Positions 645 through 13,974 of a stretch of DNA of 64,000 bases are shown one piece after another. The stretch is from Holophagae bacterium (GTDB lineage: Bacteria > Acidobacteriota > Holophagae > Acanthopleuribacterales > Acanthopleuribacteraceae). Within the stretch, counting starts at the first letter, position 1. Each line of letters starts with the position of its first letter. The notes under the pieces were generated by a model, which saw only the letters and a list, made by a program, of their open reading frames with translations, made no database searches and had not been told where the DNA came from. The stretch covers positions 186,001 to 250,000 of the forward strand of contig JAJCXM010000003.1 of assembly GCA_029263455.1 (NCBI GenBank), in the 5' to 3' direction. A program made the position numbers and the translations under genes.

Positions 645-1952
645 ATGAAAATTATATGCCTGTATCTGTCAACCTTACTTGCATTAGCAGGTCCACCCAT
701 AGATATTAGGAACATTCCATTGGCGAATGAAGTTTATATCGTTGCCATTGATGTTCAGACAAATCCGTCTAATATGCCCAATTCGATGTTGTGGGATAAA
801 CCGATAGCCCTTCTTTATAAGCAAGTCGGTACCTTTGACAACATCAGAGCCGACGTGGTTCGGCAAGAATTGAAAACAGATTTCGATAACGGGCAATATC
901 AACCGGTCGTTTTGCATGCCATGCAAAATACATCTATGACTATTCACTTTATGAACCTAATTGGCGAAGGTGAAGCACCTGTGCGAATTGTGCAGGGGCC
1001 GGTTTGTAAAGAGTGTCCTGCTAACAAGGCGTATACCTTTTCTTACGGCCAGAATGCTGATCAAACTCAGTATCCAACCTATGCATCCATTCATGCACAT
1101 GGCGTTTCTTACGACATTGATCAAGACGGCACACGGGCTGGTAACAATCTGGAGCTTGGCCCTGAGTATGACGGGCTAGTCCCACCGGGTCAGTCCCGAA
1201 CCTATTTTTACAAAAAACTTGATATCCCAGGTTTGTGGCCTTTGCATGACCACGCTAATCCGTCCCACACAGTTGGTCGTGGTTTACATTTGGCCCTCGT
1301 CGTCGAGCCTTTAAAACCCGGAGTGCAGGTTGATCATGACTTTCTAATCATCTTTTCCGACTACCCAGATTATGACCAATACATCGATGATTTTTATTCG
1401 GGTCAATTTATTCCGCCATTCTTGCATATGCAAAATAGTAATGTCATGCACGCTCACGCGCTAAATGGTTATGCAGCCATGCTACCGCCACGAATGCAGA
1501 TGTCTATTATGAATGGCGCCAGTCGCTGGGATCCGCTGCGGACAGATATTATTGGAGACCCTAGGACGCCTGTCTATGACGTCACATTAGGTTCATTAAT
1601 ACGATTCAGATTCTTAAGTTTCGGCAGTCAAACAACCCATTCTTTTCATTTGCATGGGCACGTTTGGTGGGACGTCGAGGCGCAAAAGTACAGCGATAAT
1701 ATTGCGGTACCTGCTGGCGACACACGCGAAATCATGTTTTATGCAGGGGGGCAACCCTTTCGCCATATTGCCAATTTCTTGTCAGCGGAAGCTTCCAAAA
1801 CCAGATCAGGGACAGGTGACTGGCTCTATCACTGCCACATCATCCCGCACGTTAAACACGGGATGTGGGGCGTTTTCAGGGTTCGGGATGCCGACAATGA
1901 CGACGAGGACTCCGAAGACAAGCCGCAGGGAATCGCTATTCCACAGGACTAG
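645..1952 (+). CDS. secreted multicopper oxidase
   Basis: This is a 435-residue protein with a short signal peptide (MKIICLYLSTLLALAG). It has all four copper-ligand motifs of multicopper oxidases: HAHG near residue 150, HDH near 202, HSFHLHGH near 333-340, and HCHIIPHVKHGM near 396-407. The last motif supplies the type-1 Cys, His and axial Met. A trinuclear centre plus a type-1 site with Met implies oxidation of a phenolic, metal or similar one-electron donor, with O2 reduced to water, outside the cytoplasm. The substrate cannot be read from sequence. The tail is very acidic (DADNDDEDSEDK). ATG follows AAAAGG at 8 nt. The stop codon lies inside a palindromic CTAG shared with the convergent downstream gene. 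An operon with the preceding truncated gene is likely. Confidence 0.9.
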   Translation: MKIICLYLSTLLALAGPPIDIRNIPLANEVYIVAIDVQTNPSNMPNSMLWDKPIALLYKQVGTFDNIRADVVRQELKTDFDNGQYQPVVLHAMQNTSMTIHFMNLIGEGEAPVRIVQGPVCKECPANKAYTFSYGQNADQTQYPTYASIHAHGVSYDIDQDGTRAGNNLELGPEYDGLVPPGQSRTYFYKKLDIPGLWPLHDHANPSHTVGRGLHLALVVEPLKPGVQVDHDFLIIFSDYPDYDQYIDDFYSGQFIPPFLHMQNSNVMHAHALNGYAAMLPPRMQMSIMNGASRWDPLRTDIIGDPRTPVYDVTLGSLIRFRFLSFGSQTTHSFHLHGHVWWDVEAQKYSDNIAVPAGDTREIMFYAGGQPFRHIANFLSAEASKTRSGTGDWLYHCHIIPHVKHGMWGVFRVRDADNDDEDSEDKPQGIAIPQD

Positions 1953-4102
1953 TCGACAAAACCTATAAAGCTCTCTTGATAAATTCCACTCGTTTCTTGT
2001 CCTGACACGGATTTTAATGCACTCATGAAATCCCACGTGGTTGGGGCTCTGAAATTTGAGCGCTGCATAAAGCCACTCAGCAGCATGACGAACTTTTGGT
2101 CATCGGCCATTTCTGTTCGTATTTGATGAATCATATTGGCAGCTTTGTATTGCAACAAGTCTGTTTGAATATGAGCATTCTTGTAGTCGACGATAGATAA
2201 AGCGTGACTGATGGGGAAGTTCTTCACATATTTGCCCCGGGCATCCCAGCGTTTCGTAAATTTACCTTCTACATCGTCACGGTCCGCTACGGCCATCATC
2301 AAATAGGCTGTGTATTCGGAGAAACCGCGTCCAAACCACGCATCATAAGCGGAAGCCGGTTGCACGACTGAATTCCACCAAAGCCCCGCCAAACCAACAG
2401 CCAATGACTCGTTAATTCCTCTAAATCCTGCCGTATCTGCCCTTTGTGAGCCCTTAAGACTAGCCGAGAAACGATTAAACGTTTGCTCGTCTACAGCGAT
2501 CACTCCGGGTACCGGACGCCTCAATGCTTGTAAACTAGGAACCTCAACAACACTGAATTCTTCGAAAGGTACAACGCCAAGTAGGTTGCCATAAAAATCC
2601 AAATATTGGACCGCCAGTTTGTCCATTTTCTTGACGGTCGTTTTCTTCTCCTGCGCGTATGAATAGTAATTAACGTCAAAGCCTTTGTGAGAGTACGTTA
2701 TCTGTTTGAGGTTCCCAAGTATGATGTTCGGATTCAATAGACGTCTCTCATCGGTAAAAGTACCCCAATTCATTTCCTTGTCGTGCCCTTCTTTGCTGAG
2801 TTTGCCAGGGGAGACTAAGAGCCAAGGTTTGGGTAACTTAAAACTAATATTAACGCTAGGGCGGGCGTTATAGTAATAGGGCTGTGGCCACCAAGCATAT
2901 TCGTCAAAATGAACCAGTTGATTGCCAAAATCTTGTGCCAACGCATTGCCACCATAATTGAAGGACAGGTTAAACGGTTTGCCCGCTTGGCTGGCCATGG
3001 GCAGTTCAACCACCAGACCATCGTTTTGGTGCGCGAATCGTAGTTCCTCGCCATCCGAGCTCTTAACCGATCGCAAAACGATGGCGTGCTTTTCCATATT
3101 GCGCTTGTAGTGGATAAGATCTTTAACGGTTACATAACCAAACTCTTCAACCTCGCTTTGGCCTGCCGTTTCGACAAGACTACCAAAGCCTAACGAATGC
3201 TGCTCTATGTCACGTGTCTTGAAGCGTTTGGCCGAACGTTCAGACATTAAGTCTAAGTATATGTAGCGATCACCCCCCTGGGGATCGGTATATTGAACTT
3301 GAACGTCAAAGTCTAACTGTTTCAAATTGTCGGTGCTGACGGTGGCTTGCAAATAATCTGCACCAACTGTATGAATCCGGGGCTGGCGAAAATCTGGGAT
3401 CAAATCAACAACGACATGTGTTTCAGCCTTCAGGACATCATCAAAACGGTCAAACGCAATTAAGCCCATCTTGAAATTCCGAAATGCATCCACAAAAAAG
3501 GCAAATGGCTTGTCGTCCGTTGTGAAATCAAAAAATAGATAGCCCTTATGATTAAGTCTGGCACATAGAGTAGCTAATAAGGGTTCCATGCACATTTTTG
3601 TAGGAAAAAAGATCTCATCGCGATTCTCTAGGTAGTCGCGAATAACATTCTCTGCCTTTTCCTTAAGATCAGCTGGCAAAGCCATCACGCTACCTTTTAA
3701 ATCGATGGCTGAGAAGATGATGCCTTTACCCTTTATGGAAACCGAGGACACAAGATCACCTTCGCCCTGTATCTCAACATGCCGTCCACGGACAAGTTCC
3801 AAACCGGCAAGATTATGTTTAGCTACGCGACCGTCCTGGGGCTGTTTGAGATCAAGCGTAGCGGTAATGACGCCGGACAGCGGAATATATCCGATCGGTA
3901 GATCGGCACCGTGGTCCCAAGGAATTGTAATCTGGGCCAATACGACATCTTCGAATTGAATGGAACCCGAGGGAAGTTTCATATTCTGTTGCGCAATCGC
4001 AATAGCTTGCGGGTGCACAGAAATTTCATTAAGGCGATCAAACTGGGCCGTCGCCGTCCGGCACATCAAAAAGCAAACACAGCCAAAAAGAAACGTTTTC
4101 AT
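1949..4102 (-). CDS. exported M1 aminopeptidase-like protein lacking the zinc site
   Basis: I start it at the ATG at 4102 (717 aa) rather than ten codons upstream. It is preceded by a G-rich SD (TTGGGGGTTAC) and begins a clean signal peptide, MKTFLFGCVCFLMCRTATAQ. The C-terminal third has the layout of the M1 (gluzincin) catalytic helix pair: LAVGLAGLWWNSVVQPAS near residue 570, then AYDAWFGRGFSEYTAYL. These match HExxHxWWG...DxWLNEGFxEY of M1 enzymes. The histidines and glutamates that bind zinc are replaced (HELAH becomes VGLAG, NEG becomes GRG). No GAMEN motif is seen. I infer a folded, exported but catalytically inactive M1-like protein, perhaps a binding or scaffold protein. The N-terminal half is not recognised. 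Confidence 0.7.
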   Translation of the reverse strand: MKTFLFGCVCFLMCRTATAQFDRLNEISVHPQAIAIAQQNMKLPSGSIQFEDVVLAQITIPWDHGADLPIGYIPLSGVITATLDLKQPQDGRVAKHNLAGLELVRGRHVEIQGEGDLVSSVSIKGKGIIFSAIDLKGSVMALPADLKEKAENVIRDYLENRDEIFFPTKMCMEPLLATLCARLNHKGYLFFDFTTDDKPFAFFVDAFRNFKMGLIAFDRFDDVLKAETHVVVDLIPDFRQPRIHTVGADYLQATVSTDNLKQLDFDVQVQYTDPQGGDRYIYLDLMSERSAKRFKTRDIEQHSLGFGSLVETAGQSEVEEFGYVTVKDLIHYKRNMEKHAIVLRSVKSSDGEELRFAHQNDGLVVELPMASQAGKPFNLSFNYGGNALAQDFGNQLVHFDEYAWWPQPYYYNARPSVNISFKLPKPWLLVSPGKLSKEGHDKEMNWGTFTDERRLLNPNIILGNLKQITYSHKGFDVNYYSYAQEKKTTVKKMDKLAVQYLDFYGNLLGVVPFEEFSVVEVPSLQALRRPVPGVIAVDEQTFNRFSASLKGSQRADTAGFRGINESLAVGLAGLWWNSVVQPASAYDAWFGRGFSEYTAYLMMAVADRDDVEGKFTKRWDARGKYVKNFPISHALSIVDYKNAHIQTDLLQYKAANMIHQIRTEMADDQKFVMLLSGFMQRSNFRAPTTWDFMSALKSVSGQETSGIYQESFIGFVD

Positions 4103-4155
4103 GTAACCCCCAAGAGCACAACTTCGTTGCAATTTTCACATTCTAGTACATATGC

Positions 4156-7657: not shown

Positions 7658-8923
7658 TCAAGAAACGATTTTCACCAATTTCATTCGTTTCTTGCCAGCG
7701 CGAAGCAGGAATTCTCCTCGGGCAATCGAGGCCACTGAAACTAACTCATCTGCTTCCTGCAATGCTTGATCATCGACCTTAGCTCCGCCACCCCGAACCA
7801 AACGCCTGGCTTCACTATTTGACTGAGCTAAGTCAGCTAGAACCAGTAGTTGCGTCCATGTCATCTGTTTAATATCTGCCATCGGCACAGAAATGGACGG
7901 CGTATTCAGGTGCTCCTTAACATTCACAGAAGCAATGCCTGAACTTGTTTTTACCTGTCCGCCTTCATCTGCTTGACCAAAACGAACCGCAGCCGTAGAG
8001 AATGCTTTTTTCGCGGATTCATTCCCGTGACACAATCGCGTCACCTCAAACCCTAAGATTTCCTTAGCTCGATTGATGTTCTCTTCTATTAATCGTTCGA
8101 TCTCAGCAACTGGTAGAAAAGTGAAGAGTAGCAAAAATCGTTTCACGTCCGAGTCTTCAACATTACGCCAGAATTGGTAAAAATCGAAGATCGGCGTGCG
8201 CGCTTCGTCGAGCCAAATATTCCCTTTTTCACTCTTGCCGAACTTGGCGCCGTTACTGTTTGTAACTAGCGGAAAGGTGGCACCAAACGCCTGCTGATCT
8301 TCGCCCATTCGGCGGCACAAATCCATGCCCGCAACGATATTGCCCCATTGGTCTTGGCCACCCATTTGTAACGTACAGTTGTAATTTTTGGCTAAAATGT
8401 AAAAGTCATAAGCTTGCAAGAGCATGTAATTGAACTCAATGAAGCTTAAACCCGTCTCCAGACGTGATTTCACCGACTCGGCGGTTAACATACGGTTGAT
8501 GCTGAAATGAACACCGATATCACGCAAAAAATCGATATAGCGTAACTCAATCAACCAATCTTTATTGTTTTGAATAGATCCTTGTTTACCGTCTAATTCC
8601 AGGTAGCGATTTAATTGCTCAGCTATCCCCTTCTCATTGGCCTCAATGGTGCCGTCTTCGAGCATTTGACGCATTTCTGTCTTGCCTGAAGGATCGCCAA
8701 CGCGCGCCGTGCCTCCACCAAGGATGGCGATTGGGTGATGACCGGCCGCTTGCATATGAGCCATTGCCATAATTGGCACCAGTGATCCGACGTGTAAGCT
8801 ATCTGCCGTTGGATCAAAACCCACATAAAATGTGCAGCTCTTTTGTAAATGCTGCTCAAGTTCTTGATCATGGGTTGTTTGATAAATGAATCCACGGTCT
8901 CTTAGCGTCGTCAATACCGTCAC
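7658..8923 (-). CDS. tyrS: tyrosyl-tRNA synthetase
   Basis: This is a 421-residue class I aminoacyl-tRNA synthetase that charges tRNA-Tyr in the cytoplasm. The HIGH-type motif reads HVGS at 44-47, after the tyrosine/ATP pocket YVGFDPTADSL. The KMSKS loop reads KFGKS near residue 230. The tyrosine-recognition region MGGQDQWGNI and the C-terminal S4 RNA-binding domain (QSNSEARRLVRGGGAKVDD) are present, and length is normal for bacterial TyrRS. The start codon is GTG with SD AGGGGAGGG about 6 nt upstream. It follows the kinase-fusion gene on the same strand after 122 bp. That gap holds small inverted repeats (GCTAG-CAA-CTAGC) but no clear terminator. No T-box leader was seen. Confidence 0.97.
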   Translation of the reverse strand: MTVLTTLRDRGFIYQTTHDQELEQHLQKSCTFYVGFDPTADSLHVGSLVPIMAMAHMQAAGHHPIAILGGGTARVGDPSGKTEMRQMLEDGTIEANEKGIAEQLNRYLELDGKQGSIQNNKDWLIELRYIDFLRDIGVHFSINRMLTAESVKSRLETGLSFIEFNYMLLQAYDFYILAKNYNCTLQMGGQDQWGNIVAGMDLCRRMGEDQQAFGATFPLVTNSNGAKFGKSEKGNIWLDEARTPIFDFYQFWRNVEDSDVKRFLLLFTFLPVAEIERLIEENINRAKEILGFEVTRLCHGNESAKKAFSTAAVRFGQADEGGQVKTSSGIASVNVKEHLNTPSISVPMADIKQMTWTQLLVLADLAQSNSEARRLVRGGGAKVDDQALQEADELVSVASIARGEFLLRAGKKRMKLVKIVS

Positions 8924-9045: not shown

Positions 9046-12000
9046 TTATTGCGGCGAACCAATTTGGGATACGTAGTTAACACCACCTGGGGGACTCAAG
9101 ATCCCTTTCAAAGAAGGCATCAGACCTCCAAGCGAAGCCGCGTAAGCATAAAAGGTTTTCGGTTGGAAAAGAGGTAGCCAAGGGAGTTCTGAAGCAAATA
9201 ACTCATTGATCTTCAAAATAACTTGCTTGCGCGTTTGCGGAGCCGTTCTATCTAGTTGATTCAGTAGCTCGTCCATCATTTCAGATGAGTAGCCAATGAC
9301 ATTCGCTTCGCTCTTCGAATGTATTTGGTCGGTTAAGCCATCGTAATTGGGTTCAGGACAATAGACGTCTATCCAGGCATTTACCTTGGGGTGCGCAATC
9401 AATTTCGTAAAGTCATCAAGGGGTTTCCACGCCACTTTCAGTTTAAAACCCAGACGTGACCAATGTTGAACCATGGCCTCGAAACATTTCCTCATAGAAC
9501 GATCATCAGGAATGATAATTTGAATTGAAAAGGGTTCACCGCCCTTTACCCAAAGCTCATGTTCTTTTCGATAGCCCCTGCGCTCGAGCAATGCAACTAA
9601 TTCAACGTTCGCTTGACGTATCGTTGTTGGGGCACTTGTTTTACTCTGACTAACCAAAGGCAAACCATGTACGGCTGTAAATTCATTACGAAGTAACGAC
9701 GACGTCCAATACTCAAGTAGCTGACACCGATAAAAGGCTCGCTTAAATTCACGATCAAACAATGGCTGCCGACTTTCGTCAAAACACAAGCGATACACCT
9801 TATTTGACACGTAAAAATCACGAACGATTGAGTCTCGCACTTGAGCCAACGGTGTCAATTGATGCCAGCGTTTGAGCGGCATGAAGGCAACATCTACCGA
9901 GCCGCGTACCAAGTCGCCTACGGGATCATGATCCGACGCAACTAAATCCAGCCGATTAATGCCAATGCTCGCCTTCTTAACGCGTTCTAGGCGTTTCAAT
10001 TTTTCTTCGAGTCGAGTCACCTTGAAATCGCCTGATCCCACCATCGCTTGGCTTGGATCGACTGATTTCGATTCGATTTGATGGTGGTAAACATAGGACG
10101 GCACGATCATTAAATCACACCAAAACGTCATGTTCGCTGGTAACTCATCGTGATAGGTGACGGTAATGGTAGACGAATCAACCACTTTCCATGAACTGAT
10201 TCGTCTGGCAGGCAGGGTTAACAGCGTATTGAAATAGCTTTGATTTTTAATCTGGTCTAAGGCAAAGGCAACATCGTCCGCCCTTACCAAGGCTCCGTTA
10301 TGGTATTTCATGCCCTTTTCTAATATGAAAGTCAGGCTCCGGTTTTCAGCATCCCAAGTCCAGCGGCGCGCAAGGCGTCCAACAAAGTCACCGTGAGCAT
10401 CCCATTCAATTAGCGTATGAAAAACCAACCTTGCATATTGATGGCTCTCAGGGTCACATACCTTGCTTGGCTGCGTGCTAGCGATCCAATTGGTGTCGTT
10501 AATCGCCAATTCATCATTCGATCGTCTGCGATGACTGATGTAATTGACCTCACGCATCATGCCTTCGATTTCATGCCAAACCGATTTGGCATTGGCATAA
10601 CGGCGTTTGCGTACTTCGATAAGCGCCAGCTTGTGAGACACCAATCGGCGCAACATCGTACGGTACAATTCTGGATCTTCATTGTTAGGAACCTCGACGA
10701 GATCAAGAACATCCATGGCAGACCGAAAATCGACGCCCGCCTCTTGCAATCGATATAAGCAAAGTTCCGCCTCGCCCTTCCAAAAGTAGGCCTCAAACAG
10801 TGTCAGTCTTGGCGGACCCTGATAATAGGCAATGGCATTCCCCAAATACTGCTGTGCTTCGTCGTACATATCTTTTTCAAAGAAAAAGAGTGCTAACTCC
10901 TTGCTGTACTTGAAAACGTGAGCAGTGTCTTGGGCCACAGAAGCATGTCGGATAACTGAAAATAGAAAACGGATATCGCGATCGTTCTTGACGACTGCAA
11001 CTAACGCCGCTAATGCTTGACGATGCAATTCGGTTCGCGTTTCGTCTGACAATGACTCGTAAGCGTGGCGTTGAAGACGTGAACTAGAAAACACAACGAT
11101 TTCTTGACGTAACGAGACGAAGTCTTGCAGGATGAGCTCGTTTAAATAAGTGTCAAATTCATTATCTTTCAGTCCTGACGCCTGCAGTAACACGTGCATC
11201 GAAGATTGATAACCAAAACATGCAAGCAGTGCCAACAGATCCCGCGCTCCAGGTGGAAGAAGCTGAAACTGTCGAATCAAGACTTGAGTTAGATTGACCT
11301 GAATCGTAGAGGACTCATCTTCACGACGGAAGACCCATTTACCGCTTCTAAACACCAACAAGTCGCGCTCCAACAGAACGGCGAGTAAGTTGGCCACTGA
11401 ATAGGGTAATCCCGAGCTAAGTTCGGCCAGTTCAGCGACAAGCGAAGTCTCTACCTCATTACCCTCCATCAGATAAGTACACAGCGATGCAACTTCATCT
11501 TCTTCCAACGGATTCATGGTGACGGAGACTCGATGAGGAAGCAGGTCAACAAAAGACGAACCACCGATGTTCATGGATGATTCCGCATCATCGTTGAGTA
11601 ACAGCATCCAAATGAAATCACATTCACCTGGTTTAGTGCGCGCAGACGAAAAGAAATCAACTAACTCACTGAGTTGAGTCGAGCTCAAATGTTGGATGTC
11701 ATCAATAATGATCACGCCAGGAGCTCGCCAGCGCTGAGACAGTAGCTTGATGACTTGCACAGGCGTCAAAGTTTCCGACGAGAGGGTTCCTTGCGAAAAC
11801 TCATGAGATCGATCTTTGCCAATCAAATTAACAATTGATCGAAAAACATTGCCCTCTTCTTGAGCTAACAACTCGCCATGAATGACCACTGCGCCATAAT
11901 TTTCTTCAAGGCACATGCGTGCAACCGCGTCCGCAAATCTCGATTTTCCCGTTCCGGTTGTGCCGCGAACTAACGCGGGTTGGGAAGACCTGGAGCTGAT

Positions 12001-12969
12001 CCACTTCGCGATTGTTGAATAGGCGTCGTCACGACCTAACATGGTCGCATTGCGTATCGTCAGCAGTGGTGAAGCACCCACTTTGACCGGTTGTGGCTCA
12101 AACTTTGGTGCCGTCAATTGCCTGTCAAAGAAGCCAAGTACTTCAGCGGCCGATCTATATCGATTGAGCGGATCACGCATGATCATACGGTTGGCGGCTT
12201 CAACAAGCCATGGCACTGAAGTCCCATCCATGACAGCCATCGAAGGACTCTCACGGCTTGTCTTTTCTCTGAACAGGTCAACAAACGAATAGACTTCGAA
12301 CATTCGTCTACCTGTTAAAGCGCGATAAAGCATGACCCCCAGAGAATAGATGTCGATGCGGTGATCGTAATTCTTACCGGTTAGCATTTCAGGCGCCATG
12401 TATTCAAGCGTGCCGATGACTTCTTGATGTTGTGTCAGGGCCAATTTGCTTTCCTGAAAACGAGCAACCCCAAAATCAAGTAACTTCACCTGCCCATCTG
12501 GCATAACCATCACGTTCTCTGGTTTTAGATCGCGGTGGATCACCTTGTGCTGATGTAGGTAGTTCAGTCCCTCAAGAATCTGTAGAGTCACATTAAAGAG
12601 ATGGTCAATACGATCTAAGTCGATCGCTTCGCCAATATTACGAATGTTGAACTCATCTTTGAAGGTATTGCCTTCAACAAATTCAAGGGTGAAGAATGGG
12701 CGTGTGGCATCATAAAAATCAAATACTTTGGTCACGGTGGTGTGTTCTAACCGTTTGAGCAGATCAAATTCCAGTCGAAAACGCTGGATAAGTAGATGAT
12801 CTACGGTATCTTCTTTGAGTGACTTAATCGCTATCGTTTCTTCGGAATCAGGTTTACGTGCCACAAAGATTTCGCCGACTGCGCCAACACCCAAACGCTT
12901 GTAGACCTCAAATGGCGCAATGCGTTCGTTAACCTCGTAGACAAATGAATCTTGGTAGCTAATCGTCAT
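9046..12969 (-). CDS. Ser/Thr protein kinase fused to an AAA-type ATPase and a family-5 solute-binding domain
   Basis: This 1307-residue protein has no signal peptide and no membrane segment I can find. Residues 20-285 form a complete Hanks-type kinase: glycine loop at 26-33, AIK lysine at 49, HRDLKPEN at 145-152, DFG at 165-167 and GTLEYMAPE at 186-194. Residues 300-560 are a P-loop ATPase with Walker A GTTGTGKS at 336-343 and Walker B VIIIDD at 419-424. A helical region with likely TPR character (650-810) follows. Residues about 820-1300 match family-5 extracellular solute-binding proteins (oligopeptide-binding type), for example FILEKGMKYHNGALVRADDV at 881-900. Such domains are normally periplasmic; SgrR of E. 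coli is a known cytoplasmic example. I infer an intracellular ligand-sensing kinase. The ligand is unknown, perhaps a peptide or sugar. No SD is evident at the ATG. Confidence 0.9.
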   Translation of the reverse strand: MTISYQDSFVYEVNERIAPFEVYKRLGVGAVGEIFVARKPDSEETIAIKSLKEDTVDHLLIQRFRLEFDLLKRLEHTTVTKVFDFYDATRPFFTLEFVEGNTFKDEFNIRNIGEAIDLDRIDHLFNVTLQILEGLNYLHQHKVIHRDLKPENVMVMPDGQVKLLDFGVARFQESKLALTQHQEVIGTLEYMAPEMLTGKNYDHRIDIYSLGVMLYRALTGRRMFEVYSFVDLFREKTSRESPSMAVMDGTSVPWLVEAANRMIMRDPLNRYRSAAEVLGFFDRQLTAPKFEPQPVKVGASPLLTIRNATMLGRDDAYSTIAKWISSRSSQPALVRGTTGTGKSRFADAVARMCLEENYGAVVIHGELLAQEEGNVFRSIVNLIGKDRSHEFSQGTLSSETLTPVQVIKLLSQRWRAPGVIIIDDIQHLSSTQLSELVDFFSSARTKPGECDFIWMLLLNDDAESSMNIGGSSFVDLLPHRVSVTMNPLEEDEVASLCTYLMEGNEVETSLVAELAELSSGLPYSVANLLAVLLERDLLVFRSGKWVFRREDESSTIQVNLTQVLIRQFQLLPPGARDLLALLACFGYQSSMHVLLQASGLKDNEFDTYLNELILQDFVSLRQEIVVFSSSRLQRHAYESLSDETRTELHRQALAALVAVVKNDRDIRFLFSVIRHASVAQDTAHVFKYSKELALFFFEKDMYDEAQQYLGNAIAYYQGPPRLTLFEAYFWKGEAELCLYRLQEAGVDFRSAMDVLDLVEVPNNEDPELYRTMLRRLVSHKLALIEVRKRRYANAKSVWHEIEGMMREVNYISHRRRSNDELAINDTNWIASTQPSKVCDPESHQYARLVFHTLIEWDAHGDFVGRLARRWTWDAENRSLTFILEKGMKYHNGALVRADDVAFALDQIKNQSYFNTLLTLPARRISSWKVVDSSTITVTYHDELPANMTFWCDLMIVPSYVYHHQIESKSVDPSQAMVGSGDFKVTRLEEKLKRLERVKKASIGINRLDLVASDHDPVGDLVRGSVDVAFMPLKRWHQLTPLAQVRDSIVRDFYVSNKVYRLCFDESRQPLFDREFKRAFYRCQLLEYWTSSLLRNEFTAVHGLPLVSQSKTSAPTTIRQANVELVALLERRGYRKEHELWVKGGEPFSIQIIIPDDRSMRKCFEAMVQHWSRLGFKLKVAWKPLDDFTKLIAHPKVNAWIDVYCPEPNYDGLTDQIHSKSEANVIGYSSEMMDELLNQLDRTAPQTRKQVILKINELFASELPWLPLFQPKTFYAYAASLGGLMPSLKGILSPPGGVNYVSQIGSPQ

Positions 12970-13140: not shown

Positions 13141-13974
13141 ATCGTTACTATAATCGCTAGTTTCACGATTGTCACCTATGCGAATGTCGTATATAGACTT
13201 GTCCAATGGTCAAACCTGAAGCGGGATTTTCAACATAAGCGCTATCCATGTACACAAATCGTTTGGCCGCTGCTCTTGATCACTTTGGAATCCACGCAGT
13301 TATCGCTATACTATCCAACACTTTTCGATTTTCTACGCTGCGGCGCTTTCCTATCTGCCGTCATAGATCTCAGCCATTATTACGGCATTAGACATCCAAT
13401 TCAGGTAGGTCGAAGGTGGTGCACGCCTTGCCTGATCTTGCTGTGGCTTTTTGCTTTTCGCTGGTGGTTAATGCCTGGGCCTGCCGAAGAGTGGACCGTC
13501 CCACACAACGGCACCTCTTATCTGTCACCTTCGGGATTATTAAATAATCGCCTGCACTTTGTGATGCTACCCCAATGGCGAGAAAACGATCCCTCTAAGA
13601 TCCTGGCTTGGAACAACGCTCGGGCTGTCTTTTGCCCCGTCACAGGGACAGTGCAGTCCATTGAGGACGGATCCATTCAAATTGAGGTGGACAAGGACTG
13701 CAGCATTCGCATTTATCCATTGATTCCAGAGTCCATTCAAGTTGAAGTTGATGAAACGGTAAGTGCGGGACAACCACTGGGTCTACTTGCCCAAAGCGAA
13801 TTGATGGGAATTGTGGTAGAGCAGCTGGGGCGTCATCGTGGATTGCCGCGCTTTTCTGCGGCCCAAAGTGGACGACTATTTGTGCGTCCGCTTAGCGGCA
13901 CTCAAATACACCATCATCAGTATGTAACCGCACAAACAGGCAAGTCATTTACCCAAGCAGACAGCGATCGTTAA
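13141..13974 (+). CDS. membrane protein with degenerate M23/biotinyl-lipoyl-like barrel; possible AUC start
   Basis: The frame is open from 13105. The first standard start would be TTG at 13276, which would cut away an obvious hydrophobic segment (VTIIASFTIVTYANVVY) and leave a start without SD. A perfect SD, AAGGAG (13128-13133), lies 7 nt before an in-frame ATC at 13141, so I place the start there (277 aa). Four hydrophobic segments fill roughly the first 120 residues. The soluble end (CPVTGTVQSIEDGSIQIEVD, later VSAGQPLGLLAQSE) has the spacing of an M23 peptidase or lipoyl-like barrel, but the zinc-binding His/Asp residues are absent. Probable membrane-anchored, non-catalytic envelope protein. 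It is convergent with the dehydrogenase gene at 14043. Confidence 0.55.
   Translation: MVTIIASFTIVTYANVVYRLVQWSNLKRDFQHKRYPCTQIVWPLLLITLESTQLSLYYPTLFDFLRCGAFLSAVIDLSHYYGIRHPIQVGRRWCTPCLILLWLFAFRWWLMPGPAEEWTVPHNGTSYLSPSGLLNNRLHFVMLPQWRENDPSKILAWNNARAVFCPVTGTVQSIEDGSIQIEVDKDCSIRIYPLIPESIQVEVDETVSAGQPLGLLAQSELMGIVVEQLGRHRGLPRFSAAQSGRLFVRPLSGTQIHHHQYVTAQTGKSFTQADSDR

Follow-up and report, generated by a model that had tools for sequence, protein, structure and literature searches.

The 64,000-nucleotide stretch of Holophagae DNA that was analysed here (the window) encodes a 1307-residue protein, P0001, in which a Hanks-type Ser/Thr kinase, a P-loop ATPase, a helical region and a family-5 solute-binding domain (SBP5) follow one another in a single chain. 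Our main conclusion, held at a probability of roughly 0.57, is that this protein is a STAND-type receptor kinase, soluble and cytoplasmic, with the C-terminal SBP5 domain as its sensor. The conclusion builds on computed properties, i.e., the identity and order of the domains, the catalytic and P-loop motifs, the lack of a membrane segment and signal peptide, purifying selection and the recurrence of the layout in other genomes.

Fusion gene, orthologues and topology

The gene occupies 9046-12969 on the minus strand as one open reading frame that starts with ATG and has no internal stop. The continuous fusion of kinase, ATPase and SBP5 described in a first-pass annotation was confirmed by significant Pfam matches for all three domains (Pkinase, AAA_22 and SBP_bac_5, each exceeding its curated cut-off); the helical region of about 260 residues between the ATPase and SBP5 had not been set apart there. 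The kinase (residues 18-290; 12100..12918, minus strand) is matched by Pfam Pkinase at residues 20-226 (E 8.8e-49) and, among PDB sequences, by PknB (E 1.8e-33). All features of a Hanks-type Ser/Thr kinase (PF00069) are present, i.e., the glycine loop, the VAIK lysine, HRDxKxxN, DFG and APE. The motif table places K49, E67, HRDLKPEN (145-152), DFG (165-167) and APE (192-194), so that the complete kinase claimed earlier from K49, HRD 145-147 and DFG 165-167 was found with its motifs at these residues.

Full-length orthologues with the same layout were found in a genome of the same genus (G001; 1309 aa, 65% identity) and in one of the same family (G002; 1334 aa, 34% identity), and these three proteins are referred to as the window type. 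A search of an 84,980-species collection with a profile of the helical and SBP regions gave only two full matches, JAGQSC010000009.1 (HKST-UBA04) and PDUC01000029.1 (DOLJORAL78_46_51); a third match in the contig collection (L039) was rejected as an exported SBP located beside Opp ATPases. At E 1e-60 the window-type fusion was absent from four further family members and from the remaining 86 genomes of the class. The comparison of the window with G001 gives saturated synonymous sites (pS 0.81-0.84) and a low pN of 0.16-0.28 for each of the four parts of the protein, which indicates purifying selection throughout. Identity between the window and G002 is 46.2% in the kinase, 34.9% in SBP5, 26.9% in the ATPase and 26.8% in the helical part; SBP5 is thus better conserved than the two regions preceding it and is not decaying. 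As intact full-length orthologues exist in two other genomes, a chance origin is excluded, and so is the frameshift joining separate genes that the first-pass annotation had raised against its own reading. Both orthologues come from metagenome-assembled genomes, but the same continuous frame is found in three genomes, of which two are publicly deposited and stem from separate projects, and 21 parallel proteins were found (see below); the probability that misassembly or misjoining created the fusion is accordingly negligible.

The neighbours of the fusion gene in the window are tyrS, a TonB-receptor-like gene and Gfo/Idh. The tyrosyl-tRNA synthetase gene tyrS (7658-8923, minus strand) lies directly downstream in the window and in G001 and not in G002, and the neighbours in G002 and in the widespread type described below are other, unrelated genes. 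Neither an obvious target gene nor a transporter adjoins the fusion gene in the window, and Pfam analysis of the neighbours gave no adjoining ABC permease or ATPase genes. Two neighbouring open reading frames of the window, 13276-13974 (plus strand, 232 aa) and 1949-4132 (minus strand, 727 aa), have no Pfam family, and the same holds for a gene beside the fusion in G001 (L004 5554-6360).

SBP5 domains normally work outside the membrane. The highest 19-residue Kyte-Doolittle mean in P0001 is 1.28, compared with the usual cut of 1.6, and no membrane helix is visible by hydropathy, either in the protein as a whole or specifically between the kinase and SBP5. The N-terminus, MTISYQDSFVYEV, is no signal peptide. 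This bears out the absence of a signal peptide and membrane helix noted in the first-pass annotation, and from the hydropathy and the need of the kinase for ATP we infer a cytoplasmic location. The nearest free-standing SBP5 relatives, as judged by profile, bear a lipobox-type signal peptide, and the fused domain therefore lacks the export signal of its relatives. It is highly improbable that SBP5 resides outside the inner membrane by means of an undetected segment or unusual export. Apart from the usual location of such domains, this would be favoured by a hydrophobic stretch at residues 575-593 of the G001 orthologue (L004), which scores 2.08; the aligned stretch however reaches no more than 1.46 in G002 and about 1.28 in the window, it comes before the helical part and resembles a buried helix, and among the widespread-type proteins no such stretch is repeated between kinase and SBP5.

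The solute-binding domain and the ATPase

The SBP5 domain spans from about residue 820 to the C-terminus (820-1307; 9049..10512, minus strand) and carries no signal peptide. Pfam SBP_bac_5 (PF00496) matches at 862-1180 with E 5.2e-22 (78.9 bits against a cut-off of 32.4). An AlphaFold model of residues 820-1307, built on 37 sequences, has a mean pLDDT of 85.8 and a pTM of 0.86, and Foldseek matched it to AppA, NikZ, MppA and OppA with a best E of 1.2e-28. VIA-align superimposed it on CcNikZ-II with Z 27.7 (448 residues aligned, rmsd 4.9) and on OppA, NikZ, AppA and DppA chains with Z of about 25-27. A profile from the three orthologous SBP5 domains alone also found NikZ in PDB sequences (3e-18). 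The two-lobed cluster-C fold together with a profile score above cut-off assigns the domain to family 5; the full-length domain at about 820-1300 claimed in the first-pass annotation is hence supported by Pfam, model and alignment, and its solute-binding fold was recovered by Foldseek and VIA-align.

The cleft motif is changed in the window type. Many SBP5 domains have a W-x-x-D motif, whose acidic residue is also present in the widespread type; in the three window-type proteins this position (E1206) is occupied by E, D or N and the local sequence around it is altered. The window type may therefore bind weakly or take another class of ligand. This divergent motif would agree with a rather unlikely alternative, in which SBP5 no longer binds small ligands and acts instead as a platform for protein interaction or structure, the kinase being regulated by partner proteins. 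The window-type domain furthermore sits on a long branch of the SBP tree, and its structural matches include LpqW, an SBP5-fold protein that reportedly acts as such a platform. Against this, SBP5 is complete, well predicted and conserved in its core, it has diverged less than the ATPase and arm, and the tandem SBP5 domains of the widespread type retain the canonical D-Y-x-D-x-D-x-F motif.

Residues 291-560 (11290..12099, minus strand) form a STAND-like ATPase, probably followed by a winged helix, as judged from Pfam, hhalign and a structural model. Pfam AAA_22 matches above its cut-off at residues 330-442 (E 3.1e-10); the AAA_16 cut-off was not reached. The Walker A motif GTTGTGKS lies at residues 336-343 (nt 11941-11964, minus strand), exactly as annotated before, and Walker B, previously given as 419-424, was found as IIIDD at 420-424 (nt 11698-11712, minus strand). 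Both motifs are present in all three window-type proteins, among which a GLP motif (residues 520-522) is invariant. The middle-region model has a pLDDT of 56.5 overall and mostly 60-89 in the ATPase core; Foldseek matched it to AAA+ and ORC/Cdc6 type folds, and a helix-helix-strand hairpin at about 525-560 is seen at low confidence. As the model is too weak beyond the ATPase core, a fold claim for the rest of the middle region was dropped. Residues 561-819 (10513..11289, minus strand), a candidate arm or linker, are all-helical in this low-confidence model and gave no match to Pfam TPR, and 'TPR-like' is for both reasons a provisional label. The ATPase and the start of the helical part do align with the AAA_16-helical region of the widespread type (hhalign 98.1%, E 1e-13, 387 columns).

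It is also conceivable, though still less likely than a platform function, that SBP5 acts on the kinase directly, or does so by contacting a membrane importer and sensing the loaded importer or the imported peptide, with the ATPase as a mere structural hinge. The ATPase, together with the helical part, is the least conserved portion of the protein, and the source genome has one ordinary SBP5 gene adjoining two BPD_transp_1 permease genes, so that peptides can probably be imported. These genes however sit on a different contig from the fusion, and Walker A, Walker B and GLP show little or no variation among the three orthologues, which speaks against this alternative.

Recurrence of the layout in Acidobacteriota

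The same order of domains was conserved in several Acidobacteriota genomes, an outcome that the first-pass annotation had named as support, in the two orthologues as well as in 21 proteins of a second, widespread type. An SBP profile was first run against 297 Acidobacteriota genomes and long frames were then inspected; kinase-AAA_16-helical-SBP5 proteins turned up in three other families. Two of them, L054 (1873 aa) and L057 (1880 aa), have two tandem SBP5 domains each, and the third, L061, is at least 1375 aa long, its frame being cut by the contig end. A second search of 396 genomes, with the SBP domains of these proteins and domain HMMs built for the analysis, yielded another 18 proteins in which every part is present; the majority have two SBP5 domains. 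The widespread type thus comprises 21 proteins from 14 genomes in ten other GTDB families of the 396-genome sample, and the three window-type proteins come in addition; the count of 21 represents HMM results on DNA, three of which were confirmed by Pfam. Ten other candidates (L030, L031, L033-L035, L052, L056, L062, L064 and L065) were rejected as ordinary exported SBPs behind a spurious open frame, because of their signal peptides, their codon composition and the absence of domains upstream. A plasmid search with an SBP5 domain gave no annotation of a kinase or chemoreceptor fusion among the best 40 records, in which the annotated proteins were ABC transporter substrate-binding proteins and several had no annotation.

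The catalytic lysine is present in all 24 kinases (21 of 21 in the widespread type), and HRD in 23 of the 24 (20 of 21 in the widespread type). The exception, L095 (1568-5860, plus strand), reads HRALRPEN instead of HRDxKPEN and is still fused to ATPase and SBP5; judged by its sequence it is probably inactive, a natural pseudokinase. Other variations are the 2142-aa frame of L090 (2548-8973, minus strand), with two tandem kinases, ATPase, helical region and two SBP5 domains, and L100 (1993-7323, plus strand), which has the order ATPase-helical-SBP5-SBP5 with no kinase found in the frame; its kinase may be missing, truncated or frameshifted. The tandem SBP5 domains fall into two separate clades with support 100 and 99, and the duplication is therefore old.

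A C-terminal SBP_bac_5 domain was also found behind the signalling domain of chemoreceptors (MCP) in 24 proteins from 23 Acidobacteriota genomes (L032, L053, L055, L058, L059, L060, L063 and L105-L121). L053, L059 and L108 have no membrane helix, and in many of the others hydrophobic helices are confined to the N-terminus. As MCP signalling domains are cytoplasmic in all cases known to us, the SBP5 domains that follow them should be cytoplasmic too. A sensor role agrees with the sharing of a single ligand fold, at the C-terminus, by two outputs, kinase and MCP. The widespread-type kinase fusions and the MCP fusions group together in the SBP tree, with a support of 85 that is not decisive, apart from exported SBPs.

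The window type differs from the widespread type in its single SBP5 domain and altered cleft, it is separate from it in the free SBP tree, and its kinase is no nearer to widespread-type kinases than to unrelated ones. On the other hand AU tests on the SBP tree do not reject a single kinase-SBP5 clade (p 0.155 and 0.244), and on the kinase tree (AU p 0.565) the held-together tree scored slightly better. The window protein is either a divergent member or deep branch of the widespread type or an independent second assembly.

Known relatives and proposed mode of action

SgrR and the SgrR-like DsvR are transcription factors with a C-terminal cytoplasmic SBP_bac_5 domain as putative sensor (PMC13060122), and the naming of SgrR as a cytoplasmic precedent in the first-pass annotation thus stood up. 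P0001 shares this putative C-terminal sensor and has a kinase and ATPase in place of the N-terminal DNA-binding domain of SgrR, for which there was no Pfam match in P0001 at E 0.01. The order of kinase, P-loop ATPase and helical region is shared with TOMM_kin_cyc (TIGR03903) and other kinase-AAA_16-TPR proteins, presumably including PknK. The widespread type aligns with TIGR03903 over its ATPase-TPR region (297-882); P0001 scores 160.2 bits, below the whole-protein cut-off of 705.75, and among the NCBIfam matches listed no model reached its cut-off. Unlike TOMM_kin_cyc, P0001 has no cyclase and has the SBP5 sensor added. MalT has the same plan of nucleotide-binding domain, helical arm and C-terminal inducer-binding sensor, in which inducer bound to the sensor pulls the arm off the STAND ATPase, which then opens (PMC4381067); it is however a transcription factor with a repeat-domain sensor, whereas P0001 would have a kinase as effector and an SBP5 fold as sensor. 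Control of a cytoplasmic Ser/Thr kinase by a solute-binding protein is found in the GlnH-GlnX-PknG system of Actinobacteria (PMC6069109, PMC9769921), where GlnH is separate, periplasmic and linked through a membrane protein, whereas the SBP5 of P0001 belongs to the same, apparently cytoplasmic chain as the kinase. OppA, AppA, NikZ and DppA share fold and profile with this domain, but are exported and serve ABC importers. According to a survey of solute-binding proteins, cytosolic signalling proteins in general may also have such Pfam domains as their sensors; no kinase-STAND-SBP5 protein is named in the passages covered (PMC9602780). No description of a kinase-STAND-SBP5 or MCP-SBP5 fusion was found in the open literature searched. 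The earlier remark that this exact order had not been seen described therefore holds for the publications searched, but the order is not unique, as it recurs across Acidobacteriota. Its parts, i.e., the kinase-STAND-TPR chassis and the cytoplasmic SBP5 sensor, are already known.

In the receptor-kinase reading the Hanks kinase would be the effector, the P-loop ATPase a nucleotide switch, the helical region an arm and SBP5 the sensor. A solute that enters or is made in the cytoplasm would close the two SBP5 lobes, and this closure would release the arm from the ATPase. The freed ATPase could then exchange ADP for ATP and the protein assemble, and the opened switch would activate or retarget the kinase. 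Here we infer ligand binding, the coupling of closure to the switch, the kinase output and the kinase targets. SBP5 proteins mostly bind peptides, although family members also bind nickel chelates and opines, and a peptide-like solute is therefore the first guess; the SBP5-permease set of the genome could carry such a solute into the cytoplasm.

The presence of the same domain order in many Acidobacteriota suggests that these bacteria repeatedly use SBP5 as a sensor inside the cell. It is tempting to go further, although the odds are here slightly less than even, and to regard SBP5 as a general intracellular sensor module of Acidobacteriota, located C-terminal to kinase-STAND (often in tandem) and MCP domains. 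The window protein may then be a single-sensor version that either branched off early or arose as a second, independent invention; it would sense peptide-like solutes in the cytoplasm and respond by phosphorylating Ser/Thr residues. To our knowledge the activators of most bacterial Ser/Thr kinases have yet to be found. In P0001 the presumed sensor is joined covalently to the kinase and has a fold that ranks among the best understood bacterial ligand-binding folds, and the signal may therefore be searched for by routine binding assays. The findings also suggest that SgrR is no isolated oddity, and that, throughout one phylum, a fold that is normally exported may act as a sensor in the cytoplasm and be coupled to two different outputs.
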